Both the position numbers and the translations under genes were made by a program. A stretch of DNA of 64,000 nt from an uncultured Bacteroidota bacterium (GTDB lineage Bacteria > Bacteroidota > Bacteroidia > 2-12-FULL-35-15), in contig CAIYIS010000045.1 in NCBI GenBank assembly GCA_903926385.1, forward strand, positions 1 to 64,000, given 5' to 3'. Under the pieces are notes generated by a model. It was not told the DNA's origin. It saw only the letters and a program-made list of their open reading frames with translations, and did not search any database. Shown in pieces: positions 1,665 to 62,941 of this stretch; positions within the stretch are counted from its first letter, which is position 1, and each line of letters starts with the position of its first letter.

Positions 1665-1706
1665 AATCCCGGTAAGTAATTATTAAATTCTTACCGGGAT
1701 TTCTTT
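1665..1706 (+). terminator. Rho-independent terminator after the fibronectin-like gene
   Basis: The arms aatcccggtaag (1665-1676) and cttaccgggatt (1690-1701) form a perfect 12-bp stem with a 13-nt loop, followed by tctttt. A smaller hairpin, gaagct/agcttc, lies just upstream at 1641-1658. Position and strand fit the end of the gene at 958-1620. Confidence 0.8.
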
Positions 1707-1753
1707 TGTATTTCCCCTTCTTTTTTCCCTACTTTTAACAATATCGTTTAGTC

Positions 1754-2068
1754 GAGTCCGAGTCGCGATTATTTGTGTCCGAATAATCATTATCCGAGTC
1801 CGACTATTCATTATTCGAGTCCGAATAATTGTTATCCGAGTCCGACTATTCATTACTCTAGTCCGAATAATCATTATTCGAGTCCGAGTAGCGATTATTT
1901 GTGTCCGACTATTCGTTATTCGAGTCCGAATAATCATTATCCGAGTCCGACTATTCATTACTCGAGTCCGAATAATCATTATTCGTGTCCGAGTAGCGAT
2001 TATTTGTGTCCGACTATTCATTATTCGAGTCCGAATAATCATTATCCGAGTCCGAATAATCGATATTG
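1754..2068. repeat. 21-bp palindromic tandem array A (15 units)
   Basis: Fifteen consecutive 21-bp units begin with gagtccg or gtgtccg. Three unit types alternate: type A (core gaataatcattat), type B (core gactattcatta) and type C (core gagtagcgatta). Their order is C A B A B A C B A B A C B A A, which gives a higher-order period of about five units. Type A units contain the perfect inverted repeat gaataat-c-attattc, extended in places to cgaataatcattattcg. The array is bracketed by an inverted repeat: aacaatatcg at 1737-1746 and cgatattgtt at 2061-2070. Because 21 is a multiple of three, both strands keep stop-free frames across it, and I do not regard those as genes. There are no unique spacers, so this is not CRISPR. 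Confidence 0.93.
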
Positions 2069-2159
2069 TTGAAATAATCGCTGATATTCTATAAACGGTG
2101 GGGGTTGGAGGGGGAGTATTTGGTTGTGTTTGTAAGGTTGGGGCATGGATTTTTAAAAA

Positions 2160-3167
2160 GTGAAGCTTTTTTTCTTACATTTGTTTCAAGAAAACACACT
2201 TTATTTGAATACACTCGCTACATATCTTCAAGCTTTTAAAAAACTAAAGCGAGGGAATACTCCTTATGGACTTGCACCGCATAAGCCCATATTATTGCTA
2301 AGTGTTTTGCAAGGTTTCCAAAACAAACTAATTACGCAAAACCAAATAAGTATCACCCCCGAGTTGGTATTTTTGTTTAAAGCCAACTGGACAGCCCTTG
2401 TGAATACTCCTTTTGTTTGTAATTTTGCTTTACCCTTCTTTCATCTGCATAAGGAAAAACCAAAGTACTGGCACTTGGTTCCAAAGTCGGGTTTTGAAGT
2501 TATGTTATCTGCTATGGAATCCATTTCTAGTTTTACAGCATTAAACGGGGCAGTGCAATATGCTACGTTGGATGAAGACTTGTTTGAACTCATGAAGGAA
2601 ACAACAAGCAATGGTATTTTACAACAATTTTTAATTGACACCTATTTTCCTTCCACCAAAAGTAATTTCAGCAATTCATCCGGTGAACAAAAGAAACTAT
2701 TTGACGACCTTGAAGGAAAAATACTACACGAGCCTGCCACGGCTTACCGAGCCGAAATAAAAAAACTGATAGCGGAACAAAACGAAGAAGAAATTTTTAT
2801 ACGTGGCAGTTTGTTTAAACGAGAAATACCTAAAATATATAATAATACCTGCTGTATTTCGGGGATGAAGATAGATGCAGTAATTAATGTTTCGATGATT
2901 GATGCCTGCCATATTGTGCCTTTTGCCGAAAGTTATGACGATACCATTACCAACGGCATAGCCCTATGCCCCAATTTACACAGGGCTTTCGACCGTGGGT
3001 TGATAAGCATTGATGATGATTACCGAGTGGTAATTTCAAATAAATTTAAAGAAGAAACCAGCAATTATGGCATTGGCATATTTGCAGGTAAACAAATAAA
3101 CCTGCCCGCTAACCCTAAGTTTTACCCTAGTTTGGAGAATTTTGGGAGGCATAGGGGGAGGTTTTGA
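2160..3167 (+). CDS. HNH endonuclease, restriction-type
   Basis: A 335-residue protein with a C-terminal HNH nuclease domain of the HNH_2 type. The signature runs CCISGMKI (231-238), DACHIVPF (His251), TNGIALC (Asn265) and NLHRAFDRG (His274), so the H-N-H triad is complete. The N-terminal 200 residues (YGLAPHKPILLLSVL at about 36-50) are typical of putative restriction endonucleases with this domain order. The frame opens with GTG at 2160 because an in-frame stop lies at 2154. No upstream ATG is usable, so the exact start is uncertain. It stands at the left edge of an A/T-rich island that carries a DUF262/ATPase operon, which fits a defence role. No methyltransferase partner is visible nearby, so a methylation-dependent or abortive mode is possible. 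Confidence 0.82.
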   Translation: MKLFFLHLFQENTLYLNTLATYLQAFKKLKRGNTPYGLAPHKPILLLSVLQGFQNKLITQNQISITPELVFLFKANWTALVNTPFVCNFALPFFHLHKEKPKYWHLVPKSGFEVMLSAMESISSFTALNGAVQYATLDEDLFELMKETTSNGILQQFLIDTYFPSTKSNFSNSSGEQKKLFDDLEGKILHEPATAYRAEIKKLIAEQNEEEIFIRGSLFKREIPKIYNNTCCISGMKIDAVINVSMIDACHIVPFAESYDDTITNGIALCPNLHRAFDRGLISIDDDYRVVISNKFKEETSNYGIGIFAGKQINLPANPKFYPSLENFGRHRGRF

Positions 3168-3309: not shown

Positions 3310-4422
3310 ATGGCTGAACAGGAACAAGAAAAAACAATAGAGAAAGACGAGGATACCGCATTAGAAGATAAAAAGGATGATGGAAGTCTTTATCCTTATG
3401 ACCCAGCCTATGAAAGTATTGAAATAGGAGAAGAGCCTTTTTCAGTGTATGAGTATTTAAGACAATTGGAAAAAGGAAAAATAGTCATTCAGCCAGACTT
3501 CCAAAGAAATCAAGTTTGGAGTAATGTTCAAAAAAGTAAATTCATCGAATCAATTATTTTGAATTTCCCATTACCTCCAATTTATTTGAACGAAACAAAA
3601 GAAGCCAAATATATAGTTATCGATGGACTCCAAAGGTCAACAGCAATTCAACAATTTTATAAAGGAGAATTTCCATTACAAGATATTGAAGCATTACCAA
3701 AATACAATGGGTTGTTTTTTAAAGGGCTTCCAGAGACATTACAGTCGAAATTTGAAGATAAAAAACTAACAGTTTTTGTTTTGAAACCATCTACACCAAT
3801 GGTAGTTATTTATGATTTATTTAACAGAATAAATACTGGGGGAACAATGTTAAATAGGCAAGAAGTACGTAATTGTATTTTTATTGGAAAATCAACACGA
3901 CTTTTAAAAGAGTTATCAGAACAAGATTATTTCCAGGAAGCTATTTATTGGGGAGTGAAATCTACAAGAATGAAGGACCGTGAAGTAGTATTGAGATATT
4001 TAGCATTTAAATGGTTTGATTATCAAAATGATTACACTGGAGATATGAGTGAATTTGTTGAAACTGCTATGAAAAAAATAAACAAAGCAGAGGATGAAAT
4101 AATTGAAGACATGAAATTGGACTTTCGAAGAGTTATGGAATGGTCTTATTCTATTTGGGGTAGGGCCAATTTTAGAATCCCAACAGATTATACACGAGGA
4201 ACTATTAATACTGCTATTTTAGAAACAGTTTGTAATTTTCTTTCTTCTAAATCTGATACTTTTATTGAAAAAAATAGAGAAATAATTAAAACGAATTATT
4301 CTGCACTTATTGAAAACACTGTTTATTTTGAGGCAGTAACGAAATCAACAGGTAATAAAATAAAAGTTTTAGACCGATTTAGAATTGTTCACGAAATATT
4401 AAATCAAAACATAAATGATTAA
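3310..4422 (+). CDS. DUF262 (GmrSD N-terminal-like) protein
   Basis: A 370-residue protein whose first 190 residues after an acidic leader form a DUF262 domain: VIQPDFQRNQVW (59-70), the ParB/sulfiredoxin-like motif IDGLQR (104-109) and FNRINTGG (171-178). In GmrS/GmrD-type restriction enzymes this domain supplies NTP binding and hydrolysis linked to nuclease action. The DUF1524 HNH domain usual in GmrSD is missing here, so nuclease activity must come from elsewhere. The stop overlaps the next start by 8 bases, which indicates translational coupling with the ATPase at 4415. A -7-like element tatatttg lies at 3282-3289, about 20 bases before the start. Base composition is clearly A/T-richer than the housekeeping genes after 8030. 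It probably belongs to a defence operon. Confidence 0.88.
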   Translation: MAEQEQEKTIEKDEDTALEDKKDDGSLYPYDPAYESIEIGEEPFSVYEYLRQLEKGKIVIQPDFQRNQVWSNVQKSKFIESIILNFPLPPIYLNETKEAKYIVIDGLQRSTAIQQFYKGEFPLQDIEALPKYNGLFFKGLPETLQSKFEDKKLTVFVLKPSTPMVVIYDLFNRINTGGTMLNRQEVRNCIFIGKSTRLLKELSEQDYFQEAIYWGVKSTRMKDREVVLRYLAFKWFDYQNDYTGDMSEFVETAMKKINKAEDEIIEDMKLDFRRVMEWSYSIWGRANFRIPTDYTRGTINTAILETVCNFLSSKSDTFIEKNREIIKTNYSALIENTVYFEAVTKSTGNKIKVLDRFRIVHEILNQNIND

Positions 4423-5614
4423 AGAATTACAAATTCAGAATTTTAAATGTTTTCAGAAATCTCCTGTATTCGAGTTTTCAAAACTAAATTTGCTAACAGG
4501 TATAAATGGAAGGGGGAAATCATCTCTGTTACAATCCATAATTTTACTTTCTCAATCTAGTGAGCATTTAAAAAAAATCGAAAAGTTGATTCTCAATGGT
4601 AAATACATTCAATTAGGTAATTTCGATGATATAAAAAATAGTGAGACACCTAGAGGGGGAGTTATTTCATACAAAATTACACTCGATTCACCAAATTTAA
4701 AAATTGAATTAGATTTCGAAGAAAATGAATTGGATTCTTTAACTGCAAAAACTAAAAAAATAAAAACCGAATATAGTGCCATTGATGATGAGTCATTAAA
4801 GAAGACAATTAAAAGTGTTAAAGATTTCAACACTAGTATGGGATTTACAACCAGTGAAAAGGAAATCGTAGAGGAAGTGCCTCAGGTTATTTTTAGTGAA
4901 ATAATTTCGTACATTCATTATATAAGTGCTGATAGATTAGGACCAGTAAAATATGTTGATAAAACATCTCTTCCTGAATTTTTAAATGTTGGAGCCAGAG
5001 GAGAATACACTATCAATATTCTTGCAAATGACAACTTACCATTAGTGCAGGATCATATGTATTTGGGAATCGATGCAAAAAGCGTCATTCAACAAACAGA
5101 AGAATGGCTAAGTTATGTTTTGGAAGGTGCTAAAATAAAAATTGAAGGAAAAGAAAAGACAAGTAGTGTTTTGCAATTGCTTTTAAATAATAAAAATAAC
5201 TCATATAGTTACAAACCTTCCAATGTTGGTTTTGGTTATAGCTATATATTACCTTTAATTGTTAGTGGTTTAATTGCACAGCCTGGAGAAACTTTAATAA
5301 TTGAGAATCCTGAAGCACACCTTCATCCAAAAGCACAATCAAAAATTACTGAGTTTTTTGCAAGGGTAGCGTCTGGAGGAGTTCAGGTTTTCATTGAATC
5401 TCATAGTGAGCATATTTTAAATGGACTTAGAGTTAGTGCTTTAAATCCTGATATCAATATTAAACACGATGAGCTAACAATTCAATACTTTAACGAATCT
5501 TTTGAACCTGTAAAACTTGTTATGGACAAAAAAGGTAAAATAGAAAATTGGCCTGATGGTTTTTTTGACCAACAGGAAATAGATTTGGCAAATATCTTTA
5601 AATTTACAAGGTAA
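4415..5614 (+). CDS. AAA ATPase with C-terminal DUF3696
   Basis: A 399-residue SMC/OLD-like ATPase. Walker A is GINGRGKSS (29-37), the ABC-type signature region is SNVGFGYSYILPL (269-281), Walker B is LIIENPE (294-300) with the following AHLHPKAQ, and ESHSEH (328-333) is the switch segment. The C-terminus (about 350-398, including KGKIENWPDGFFDQQEIDL) matches DUF3696. No TOPRIM domain is present, so this is not a GajA/OLD nuclease. DUF3696 ATPases are often found beside DUF262 genes in defence islands, as here, where the genes overlap by 8 bases. I infer that the ATPase senses or gates the activity of the DUF262 protein and of the nuclease-like protein encoded 9 bases downstream. Confidence 0.88.
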   Translation: MIKELQIQNFKCFQKSPVFEFSKLNLLTGINGRGKSSLLQSIILLSQSSEHLKKIEKLILNGKYIQLGNFDDIKNSETPRGGVISYKITLDSPNLKIELDFEENELDSLTAKTKKIKTEYSAIDDESLKKTIKSVKDFNTSMGFTTSEKEIVEEVPQVIFSEIISYIHYISADRLGPVKYVDKTSLPEFLNVGARGEYTINILANDNLPLVQDHMYLGIDAKSVIQQTEEWLSYVLEGAKIKIEGKEKTSSVLQLLLNNKNNSYSYKPSNVGFGYSYILPLIVSGLIAQPGETLIIENPEAHLHPKAQSKITEFFARVASGGVQVFIESHSEHILNGLRVSALNPDINIKHDELTIQYFNESFEPVKLVMDKKGKIENWPDGFFDQQEIDLANIFKFTR

Positions 5615-5623
5615 CATAACGCT

Positions 5624-6526
5624 ATGAAAGCAGAGTTTTATATCGTAGCGGAATCTTTCGCCAATAACGAAAATTTTACAACTCCTGAAATTGAAAGTAA
5701 AACAAAATTGCTTTCCAACGATATTGTTTACATACGGAAATACAGTGAAACAAATAAACTTTTTGTTCATCACGATATTTATAATATAAATTTTCTTAAT
5801 GGTGTCCTGCTTTCGGATTTACTTTTCAATCCACAAATAGGAAAACAACATCTTGATAGAGATGTTTACAATGCCCTGCAAAGAATTTTAATTGAAACAG
5901 CAGTAACAACATATTCAACACAAGAAGTAATTACAGTTCTTTTACCTGAGCACAACCGAGACCTTTGTCATGGCTTAATCGCATTCAATTCCGTTGCAGG
6001 AGTTGCCCCCGAATTTCAAATTGTATATAATAGTCAAGGATGGCTTGATTTCAGAAGACATTATTTAGGTTTGTATCCCAAGAATGAAAATTTCTACATC
6101 AACGAATGCATAAAATATTTCCCCAATCTTTATTTCCACGAAAGAAACAGAGTTAGCATAAATTCAATTTTTGATGATTGCCCCATGAAAATAATTTATC
6201 ATTTGGCAGCATTGAATGACAAGTTCAAAAGCATTGACAAAAAAAACAAAAACCGAACACAGGTTTTAGAAGCCTTTTCAATTATATCACAATTAGATGA
6301 AACAGCTTCATTGGAAGGACACGCAGCAAGGAAAGTAGATTTTACTTTTGTTTTTGTAAATAATAAAAAAGAAAGTGTAGAAGTATGTTGCGAACCTCAC
6401 ATGAAGCTTTGTTATAGCGATACAAGTAGAGAGTATTCAAATGACAGAAGAATTTATTTCCATGAAGGAATCCCATCAATTAATGAAGGTAAGATTTTAG
6501 TTGGTCATATAGGAAGGCATCTTTAA
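5624..6526 (+). CDS. Unknown protein with nuclease-like C-terminus, third gene of the DUF262/DUF3696 operon
   Basis: I do not recognise a named family for this 300-residue protein. The C-terminal third carries a polar motif series: a Glu-rich helix (TASLEG, about 227-232), VDFTFVF with Asp239, then VEVCCEPHMKL (252-262) with Glu253, Glu257, His259 and Lys261, and a striking end GHIGRHL (294-300). The spacing of Asp on one strand and E-x-x on the next recalls PD-(D/E)XK nucleases, but the usual Lys is replaced (EVC), so this is a hypothesis. The N-terminal part is mixed alpha/beta with no signal peptide. It starts 9 bases after the ATPase stop and shares its A/T-rich composition, so it is very probably co-transcribed. 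It could be the effector of the system. Confidence 0.6.
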   Translation: MKAEFYIVAESFANNENFTTPEIESKTKLLSNDIVYIRKYSETNKLFVHHDIYNINFLNGVLLSDLLFNPQIGKQHLDRDVYNALQRILIETAVTTYSTQEVITVLLPEHNRDLCHGLIAFNSVAGVAPEFQIVYNSQGWLDFRRHYLGLYPKNENFYINECIKYFPNLYFHERNRVSINSIFDDCPMKIIYHLAALNDKFKSIDKKNKNRTQVLEAFSIISQLDETASLEGHAARKVDFTFVFVNNKKESVEVCCEPHMKLCYSDTSREYSNDRRIYFHEGIPSINEGKILVGHIGRHL

Positions 6527-22508: not shown

Positions 22509-22785
22509 AATATTAAAAGCAATGCCAATTTAGATAATTCGTCATATTGATGAATGGGGTTTTTAGATTGGCGTTTTTACATGGTTGATGTTTTCTCCAA
22601 TAAAGATAATATATATAATGTAAGTGCTAAAAAAGTTTGGTTATGAACCCAACATTCTAGTTGTTATCTTTATTCAAGAAAGAGGTCTTTATAGCTTCAC
22701 TCACCTTTTTGATATTCGGAAGCGACCATTGATGTCAGAAAGATAGTGTTTTGTTAATTTATAGAAGTTTATTGACTACTGATTT

Positions 22786-22994
22786 GGAAAGTTGGGAATT
22801 TCTTTGAAAGAAAAGTACTTTGTTTTACAAAAGTTGGGAATTTCTTTATAAGAAAAGTGCGTTACATTAAAAGAAAAGTACATTGTTTTACGAAAGTTGA
22901 GAATTTCTTTCAATGAAAAGTACTTTGTTTTATAAAAGTTGAGAATTTTATTAGAAGTAATTCGTTTTTCTTTTAATAAAATTCCCAACTTTCC
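22786..22994. repeat. ~42-bp tandem array B with inverted terminal copy
   Basis: About four and a half copies of a 41-42 bp unit share the blocks aaagttgggaatttctt, gaaaagtac and ttgtttta. One copy is followed by a half unit (about 22872-22893). The array opens with ggaaagttgggaatt (22786-22800) and closes with the exact reverse complement aattcccaactttcc (22980-22994), a 15-bp terminal inverted repeat. The last two elements form a 21-bp stem with two mismatches (22937-22957 with 22970-22990, 12-nt loop). The array lies between the end of the redoxin gene (minus strand) and the 5' side of kbl, in a 555-bp gap that is otherwise without a gene (22509-22785 shows nothing else). Confidence 0.88.
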
Positions 22995-23018
22995 AAAAAC
23001 CACTTAAATGAAATTTCT

Positions 23019-32743: not shown

Positions 32744-33019
32744 TTTTTAATTGAATAAGAATTCGAAAGTAAAATTAACGAAAAAAAATACTTGCCTTCT
32801 TTCCAAAATTTACAAGAAGGTTGGGTGCATTGTTTTTCATCCGAATTTTGCTGCCAGATCATTGAAAGTAATTTACGGTTGTTTCGAAAAGGGTTGAGTA
32901 TAGTGTCGCAACCGCATGGCATAATGCGAGAAAAGAGTAGGGAAGGAGGATGAAACACATTACAGTTTCTTAAAAAAAGAAGGCAATGTTGAGACGAAAC
33001 ATGGACGTTTCGTGTCGTC
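32744..33019. other. Intergenic region before array C
   Basis: I see no gene in this stretch. It holds a small hairpin (ccttctt near 32793 with aagaagg) and, at the right end, acgaaac (32994-33000) paired with gtttcgt (33007-33013). The tandem array begins at 33020. Confidence 0.5.
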
Positions 33020-33196
33020 ATCATATGATGTCAGAGCGAAATCATACGATGTCGAGGCGACATCATATGATGTCAAGGCGAAATCATACGATGTCGAGAC
33101 AAAATCATATGATGTCAGAGCAAAATCATACGATGTCGAGACGAAATCATATGATGTCAGAGCGAAATCATACGATGTCGAGACGAAATCATATGG
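33020..33196. repeat. 21-bp palindromic tandem array C (8 units plus a partial)
   Basis: Eight 21-bp units in strict alternation: units with the palindrome atcatatgat followed by gtcagagcgaa-like sequence, and units with atcatacgat followed by gtcgagacgaa-like sequence, hence a 42-bp higher-order period. A partial ninth unit ends at about 33196. Flanking the array, tacagttt (32961-32968) and aaactgta (33208-33215) are inverted. The stop-free frames across it encode a heptad peptide (SYDV...); they are probably not genes. The fibronectin-like gene at 33301 begins 105 bases later. Confidence 0.92.
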
Positions 33197-33300
33197 TTTT
33201 TTTTGTAAAACTGTATCAAGTTTGGCGAAAATTGTATGATGATTTTATATAAAATGGAAAATAAATAAACAAAATAATAATTAATTAAACACTTATAACT

Positions 33301-62440: not shown

Positions 62441-62594
62441 GGTTACACATTTTTTATGCTTTTTGGTTTCTATTGCAATGATGGATAGTAAACGGGGAGT
62501 TAAAAAAGGGCTGCTCTCAGTACAATGTCAACTCCAAAATGGATACATCTCCCCCCATCATGCACCAACATAAAGAAAATAGGAGTAGCACAAC
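62441..62594. other. Intergenic region before array D
   Basis: Between the flavoprotein gene and the array I see only short A/T-rich and C-rich blocks. The upstream part should hold the flavoprotein promoter, but no good TAnnTTTG element is evident. Confidence 0.4.
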
Positions 62595-62912
62595 GATTCG
62601 TTCGGACGAATCGTTATCCTACATCAGTAGCAATGCAATCTGTTCGGACGGATCGTTATGCTACATCAATAGCAATGCGATTCGTTCGAACGAAGTGTTA
62701 TGCTACATCAATAGCAATACGATTCGTTCGAACGAAGTGTTATACTACATCAATAGCAATACGATTCGTTCGAACGAAGTGTTATGCTACATCAGTAGCA
62801 ATACGATTCGTCCGAACGAAGTGTTATGCTACATTAGTAGCAATACGATTCGTCCGAACAAAGTGTTATGCTACATCAGTAGTAATACGATTCGTTCGAA
62901 CGAAGTGTTATC
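62595..62912. repeat. 42-bp palindromic tandem array D (7 units plus a partial)
   Basis: Seven 42-bp units and a partial eighth, starting gattcgttcgaacgaagtg and continuing through ttatgctacatcaatagcaatac-like sequence. The core ttcgttcgaacgaa is a perfect 14-bp palindrome; the first unit instead contains cgattcgt-tcgg-acgaatcg, an 8-bp hairpin with a TCGG loop. Units drift at a few positions (ttcg/tccg, cagtag/caatag). The array lies between the flavoprotein and rluF genes. Because 42 is a multiple of three, ORFs run through it in more than one frame; I do not regard them as genes. Confidence 0.93.
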
Positions 62913-62941
62913 CATCTGTATGTTTACGAGGAGAATGAATG

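Follow-up and report, generated by a model that had tools for sequence, protein, structure and literature searches.

Genes and features at the locus

The window (the whole stretch of 64,000 nucleotides analysed here) holds a LytTR gene (409-783) and, at 2160-3167, a gene for an HNH endonuclease. The latter precedes a three-gene anti-phage operon on the forward strand (3310-6526) with full-length PADLOC matches to NsnA, NsnB and NsnC (E 1e-93 to 1e-112), which we take to be a Menshen system. Positions 1-90 carry an intergenic hairpin, CCCCTCTCCTTTGGAGAGGGG-CGGGGGTGAGG, that is dispersed and lies near several arrays both in this genome (L274, L080, L082) and in relatives (L155, L108); it is a REP-like element of its own.

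The array studied here, at 1754-2068, is real and non-coding. It consists of fifteen 21-bp units that, read in register from position 1754, fall in the order C A B A B A C B A B A C B A A. TRF places it at 1768-2061, with period 21, 14 copies, 0% indels and a score of 343, and also detects a 105-bp higher order at 96%; the best TRF score among 1000 dinucleotide-preserving shuffles of the 800-bp region was 62. The fifteen units, three unit types and unit order given by the sequence-only reading are confirmed, and the proposed period of two helical turns and duplication of blocks of about 105 bp are supported. Inverted repeats had been described as bracketing the array. They are present (AACAATATCG at 1737-1746 and CGATATTGTT at 2061-2070), but the left one lies outside the proposed start at 1754 and the right one overlaps the last unit. 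Counted with its 19-nt ends, the full element occupies 1736-2071, that is, 336 bp or 16 x 21. Positions 1694 and 2111 would be the approximate left and right limits of the dispersed element, judging from flanks shared with other copies (Table 1).

Table 1. Parts of the array element and class arrays elsewhere in the window
Feature	Position	Strand	Remarks
Array body, 15 units	1754..2068		In each unit the dyad ANTCG-AGTC-CGANT is conserved and a core of 7 bp varies
Left terminal inverted repeat TAACAATATCGTTTAGTCG	1736..1754	+	Outer 10-11 nt pair with right end; left ends aligned across family
Right terminal inverted repeat CGAATAATCGATATTGTTG (read on +)	2053..2071	-	Closes the 336-bp element
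Left outer flank	1694..1735		Common to both contig C2 copies: 93% over 55 bp and 81% over 68 bp, including the terminal inverted repeat
Right outer flank	2072..2111		Common to copy C2a: 78% over 65 bp, including the terminal inverted repeat
Class array, 42-bp step, self-complementary	22783..22997		Perfect 19-bp terminal inverted repeats TTTGGAAAGTTGGGAATTT/AAATTCCCAACTTTCCAAA
Class array, 21-bp units alternating as 42-bp dimers	33014..33200		ATCATATGAT palindrome
Class array, 42-bp palindromic unit AGTAGCAATACGATTCGTTCGAACGAAGTGTTATGCTACATC	62578..62917		Second copy, 88% identical, at contig position 97 kb (L076)

Copies in the genome and in relatives

A search of the organism's own genome (4.27 Mb in 85 contigs) found the same 21-bp unit at six other intergenic spots, making seven copies of what we call the AGTC family: C45 (the window array), C81, C53, two arrays on C2, C57 and C8, each between genes. 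Their ends read AA(C/G)A(A/G)T(A/T)TCG..., and the two ends match each other poorly in C81 and C53. There are 15 units in each of C45, C81 and C53, and 7, 6, 2 and 2 in the remaining copies. Unit number varies between copies, which supports the sequence-only reading, but frequent change is not supported, since C45 and C81 keep the same 15-unit order without a single indel although 40 of their 315 bases differ.

Among 36 genomes of the genus, the exact AGTC motif is confined to this one. Four relatives (G014, G004, G034 and G026) have arrays that are 66-76% similar; these retain the AATAATCATTATT-like core but differ in the linker. The relatives, found by way of prsA, are metagenome-assembled Bacteroidia. 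In those examined, an AGTC family array is absent from the syntenic tRNA-prsA and rpsF-upstream places, and in G034 there is likewise none ahead of the HNH gene. The tRNA-prsA gap, which holds the C81 copy in the own genome, is occupied in G013 by a different 21-bp array (L017 2752-2989).

Conservation and symmetry of the unit

Over the 62 units of the family, columns T3, G6, A7 and A17 are invariant and G2, C4 and C5 nearly so. The column counts define a conserved dyad, ANTCG-AGTC-CGANT (in a longer form TANTCG-AGTC-CGANTA), with a variable core. Earlier emphasis had been on the palindromes. Type A units (CGAATAATCATTATTCG) are indeed palindromic, types B and C being so only in part, but what is conserved is the dyad round the linker and not the A palindrome alone. 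When all family units are pooled, the conservation profile is dyad-symmetric (r = 0.64, p = 0.025); that of the window array alone lacks such symmetry (r = -0.12).

Is the dyad a protein site or a base-paired hairpin? Differences between C45 and C81 fall on 8 of 135 linker positions versus 32 of 180 core positions (p = 0.0018); permuting the arms within arrays leaves pairing across the AGTC 'loop' just as good (p = 0.53); and copy groups differ jointly at positions 16 and 10 (pooled p = 0.023). Taken together, these results fit a two-fold protein site better than a base-paired hairpin. A protein-binding-like dyad with a conserved linker is supported.

The hairpin idea has a broader form, in which the array is a structured nucleic acid, either a closed RNA of many hairpins or a DNA cruciform, with a role in ending or protecting transcripts or as a recombination hot spot. 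Compared with dinucleotide shuffles, both strands do have much stronger folds (z -6.9 and -6.1), and in relative G013 an array of 21-bp units (L160 6087-6339) is closed by perfect 28-bp inverted repeats and folds as one long closed stem. Against a control that preserves the tandem layout, however, folding of the window array reaches only z -1.3 to -1.6. The two strands fold equally well, as symmetry of the DNA itself would have it, no terminator-like site was found, and compensatory pairing across the loop is missing within arrays, as noted above. We consider a structural role unlikely.

Other identities

Since 21 is a multiple of three and the window array can be read through in three frames, a translated repeat protein with seven residues per unit also has to be weighed. 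Open frames show a small excess in the class (1.49 versus 1.18 in unit-permuted controls, which do not keep dinucleotides). On the other hand, all six frames are interrupted in the 89%-identical C81 paralogue, which upholds the earlier statement that the array is not coding; the variable columns of the unit are out of step with codon phase, and intergenic 18-, 24- and 27-bp periods are not enriched in the clade. A coding origin is thus extremely improbable.

Several other candidates were rejected. Rfam has no match in the window, no tRNA-like element was found, and no hairpin RNA with compensatory changes occurs inside arrays. Searches of phage records and viral contigs gave no match. A RAYT origin was discarded because Y1_Tnp has only weak matches in the own genome and strong ones in array-free genomes. 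LytTR operators are direct repeats 21 bp apart with the consensus [TA][AC][CA]GTTN[AG][TG]; this spacing and the LytTR gene in the window prompted a search for the consensus, which has no match in the window array. CRISPR was likewise dismissed, in agreement with the sequence-only reading: the units abut, the period is 21 bp and there are no unique spacers.

A clade-wide class of 21- and 42-bp arrays

Intergenic tandem arrays are common in the own genome and in at least five related species, and about three quarters of them have a period of 21 or 42. TRF found 20 in 464 kb of the own genome, 14 with period 21 and four with period 42. In 400 kb of G026 the count was 10 of 16 with one or other of these periods, and in G014, G034 and G013 it was seven of seven. 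Lag autocorrelation, a detector independent of TRF's model, was applied to seven clade genomes (1.49 Mb): lag 21 has 67 places and lag 42 has 28, against 1, 2, 1 and 2 for the neighbouring lags 20, 22, 41 and 44. When only intergenic windows are considered, lag 21 accounts for 51 of 96 and lag 42 for 20 of 96 in the clade, as against 0 of 14 in controls. No intergenic place at lag 21 or 42 was detected in ten other genus members (0.96 Mb) or in 80 other Bacteroidota loci (1.33 Mb).

The arrays of the clade, scattered between the genes of a small uncultured group of Bacteroidia, probably number well over a hundred. Extrapolation from the 19 in the less biased 464 kb would give roughly 170 for the own genome. 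The census rests on genome stretches rather than whole genomes, and array densities are approximate because some clade stretches were picked for holding the AGTC family. Most of the arrays share no sequence similarity with each other. In partial coverage of the literature, a clade with a common 21/42-bp period was not reported.

One long array in G026 (L264 9251-9985) is 735 bp, or 35 x 21, and has imperfect inverted ends. Arrays L083 and L091 of the own genome and L106 of G026 have 54-64% G+C inside genomes of 36-38% G+C, and so their units do not resemble locally amplified DNA. Several large open frames contain recurrent coding repeats of 51 bp, or 17 residues (L267 13049-13952 of the own genome and L106 13947-14783 of G026).

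The indel-to-mismatch ratio is 0.06 in 21/42-bp arrays versus 0.23 and 0.33 in other arrays, with the caveat that TRF may miss indel-rich arrays. In the 21/42-bp arrays, spacing is better kept than sequence. These observations bear on another account, passive replication slippage of junk DNA with neither selection nor any measure of length. Clade intergenic DNA does carry other short simple repeats, and about half of the arrays lack significant dyad symmetry, both of which speak for slippage. Slippage should nevertheless yield assorted periods, whereas periods of 20, 22, 41 and 44 are nearly absent beside 21 and 42, and it does not account for spacing being conserved better than sequence. We disfavour it as very unlikely.

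Symmetry extends beyond the AGTC family. Roughly half of the arrays are dyad-symmetric, on both strands, including nearly all of the 42-bp arrays; the axis rank of the conservation profile averages 0.315 in 28 dyad arrays and 0.48 in 29 non-dyad arrays (about 0.5 expected). With the outermost units included, 15 of 50 arrays (about 30%) have inverted repeats between their own two ends that surpass those between ends of different arrays, where 2-3 are expected; an earlier test on flanks only gave a slight excess. Part of the excess may stem from the internal symmetry of dyad arrays, in several of which interior stretches match the left end equally well. The orientation of genes flanking the arrays is that of the background, with no terminator or promoter bias.

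Comparison with known elements

The AGTC family has two traits of MITEs, namely terminal inverted repeats and several dispersed copies that are absent from orthologous sites. No target-site duplication is obvious at seven elements bounded by terminal inverted repeats. Own-genome searches with the flanks as query returned family members and weak matches only, and Y1_Tnp, the one transposase family tested, does not track the arrays.

Among other repeats, REP/BIME elements (moved by RAYT transposases) are also many-copy intergenic palindromic repeats but are single or paired tagged palindromes rather than tandem 21-bp units. CRISPR has regular, partly palindromic units too, and is set apart from the window array by its spacers and period. 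Plasmid iterons are direct repeats of about 20-22 bp phased on one helix face. Unlike them, the arrays here occur at many sites in chromosomal-looking intergenic DNA, and none of the six neighbouring genes checked at the window array is a replication gene.

The closest known kind is the minisatellite-bearing MITE of the BrickBuilt type, described in Porphyromonas gingivalis (PMC4596501). BrickBuilt shares with the AGTC family its occurrence in Bacteroidota, its intergenic, dispersed copies and its small inverted ends with flanks; it has 1 to about 23 spacer-less tandem units and is limited to one or two species, which is again similar (PMC4596501). It differs in its 23-nt unit (21 nt here), its leader and tail of up to about 300 nt, its IS5-like ends (GAGACCTT.GCA, matching IS5-family elements) and its up to 6% indels (0% in the window array) (PMC4596501). 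BrickBuilt is moreover one sequence family (PMC4596501), whereas here unrelated families share a clade-wide period. MITE464/PgRS of P. gingivalis is a MITE whose internal tandem array is close to four helical turns, but its repeats are of 41 nt, not 42, its flanks are repetitive and its ends are of IS5 type (PMC4596501). Two 42-bp arrays of the own genome (L268 707-1000 and L271 1885-2140) have a conserved tail of more than 100 bp (AAACTCCGTTTTACCCA...GCGTTTTAA), and their leader/tail layout resembles that of BrickBuilt.

The main rival explanation is a selfish MITE-like element of BrickBuilt type that does nothing for its host. Its inverted ends would be the mobile part, and the minisatellite inside it a slippage by-product on a palindromic seed. 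The exact period would then reflect the seed, since two arms of 19 nt and a further 4 nt add up to 42 bp. The smallest copies, C8 and C2b, suit this explanation, being little more than two units between inverted ends CAAGAGTTTCGTTAAGTCG...CGACTTGTTGAAAGTCTTG; so do the matching architecture of BrickBuilt in P. gingivalis (PMC4596501), the unbiased orientation of flanking genes and the flank likeness between the window array and the C2 copies, which extends about 40 bp past the ends and is then lost. What it leaves unexplained is why many unrelated families have 21 or 42 bp in common and so few indels; target-site duplication is not seen, nor is any matching transposase known. We regard a purely selfish element as rather doubtful.

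Interpretation

We tentatively prefer to see the AGTC family as dispersed non-coding elements of MITE-like kind, with units that would be helically phased candidate sites for a dimeric DNA-binding protein. A pair of inverted ends, each about 19 nt long, closes round 2-15 exact 21-bp units. Every unit has one dyad-symmetric site, TANTCG-AGTC-CGANTA, and a core that is short and variable. The site would be bound by a putative dimeric protein, so that the array would line up many dimers on one helix face, every two turns. The array would have grown by duplication in multiples of 21 bp, here in 105-bp blocks, and copies would have spread to new intergenic places. Phasing would also be the reason why the AGTC family and dozens of unrelated clade families keep a 21- or 42-bp step. 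B-DNA has a pitch of 10.5 bp per turn, and only even counts of turns give whole base pairs, which may be why 21 and 42 are present but not 31-32 or 52-53. Against this reading stand the half of the arrays that have no significant dyad, the profile of the window array, which is not dyad-symmetric when taken alone, the fact that no target-site duplications were seen, and the failure of Y1_Tnp, the one transposase family tested, to track the arrays.

A single sequence-specific protein cannot bind all arrays of the class, since the others are unrelated in sequence. Each family would then need a partner of its own, unless some protein or process responds to spacing and not to sequence. That the step of most arrays is two or four helix turns regardless of sequence suggests that something measures spacing. 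It is possible, if somewhat less than probable, that the clade has a genome-wide '21-bp ruler', some process or protein scaffold through which intergenic arrays arise or are maintained at exactly two or four turns whatever their sequence.

Bacterial tandem repeats are usually viewed as slippage products of assorted periods. The 21/42-bp steps of this clade, with few indels and frequent inverted ends, point instead to a physical constraint, set by the helix or by a bound protein. If the ruler exists, it would make the arrays a new type of bacterial satellite or nucleoid-organising DNA. The clade would offer a tractable bacterial case in which to ask whether satellite-like DNA organises a chromosome, and the unit is a direct bait for the protein.
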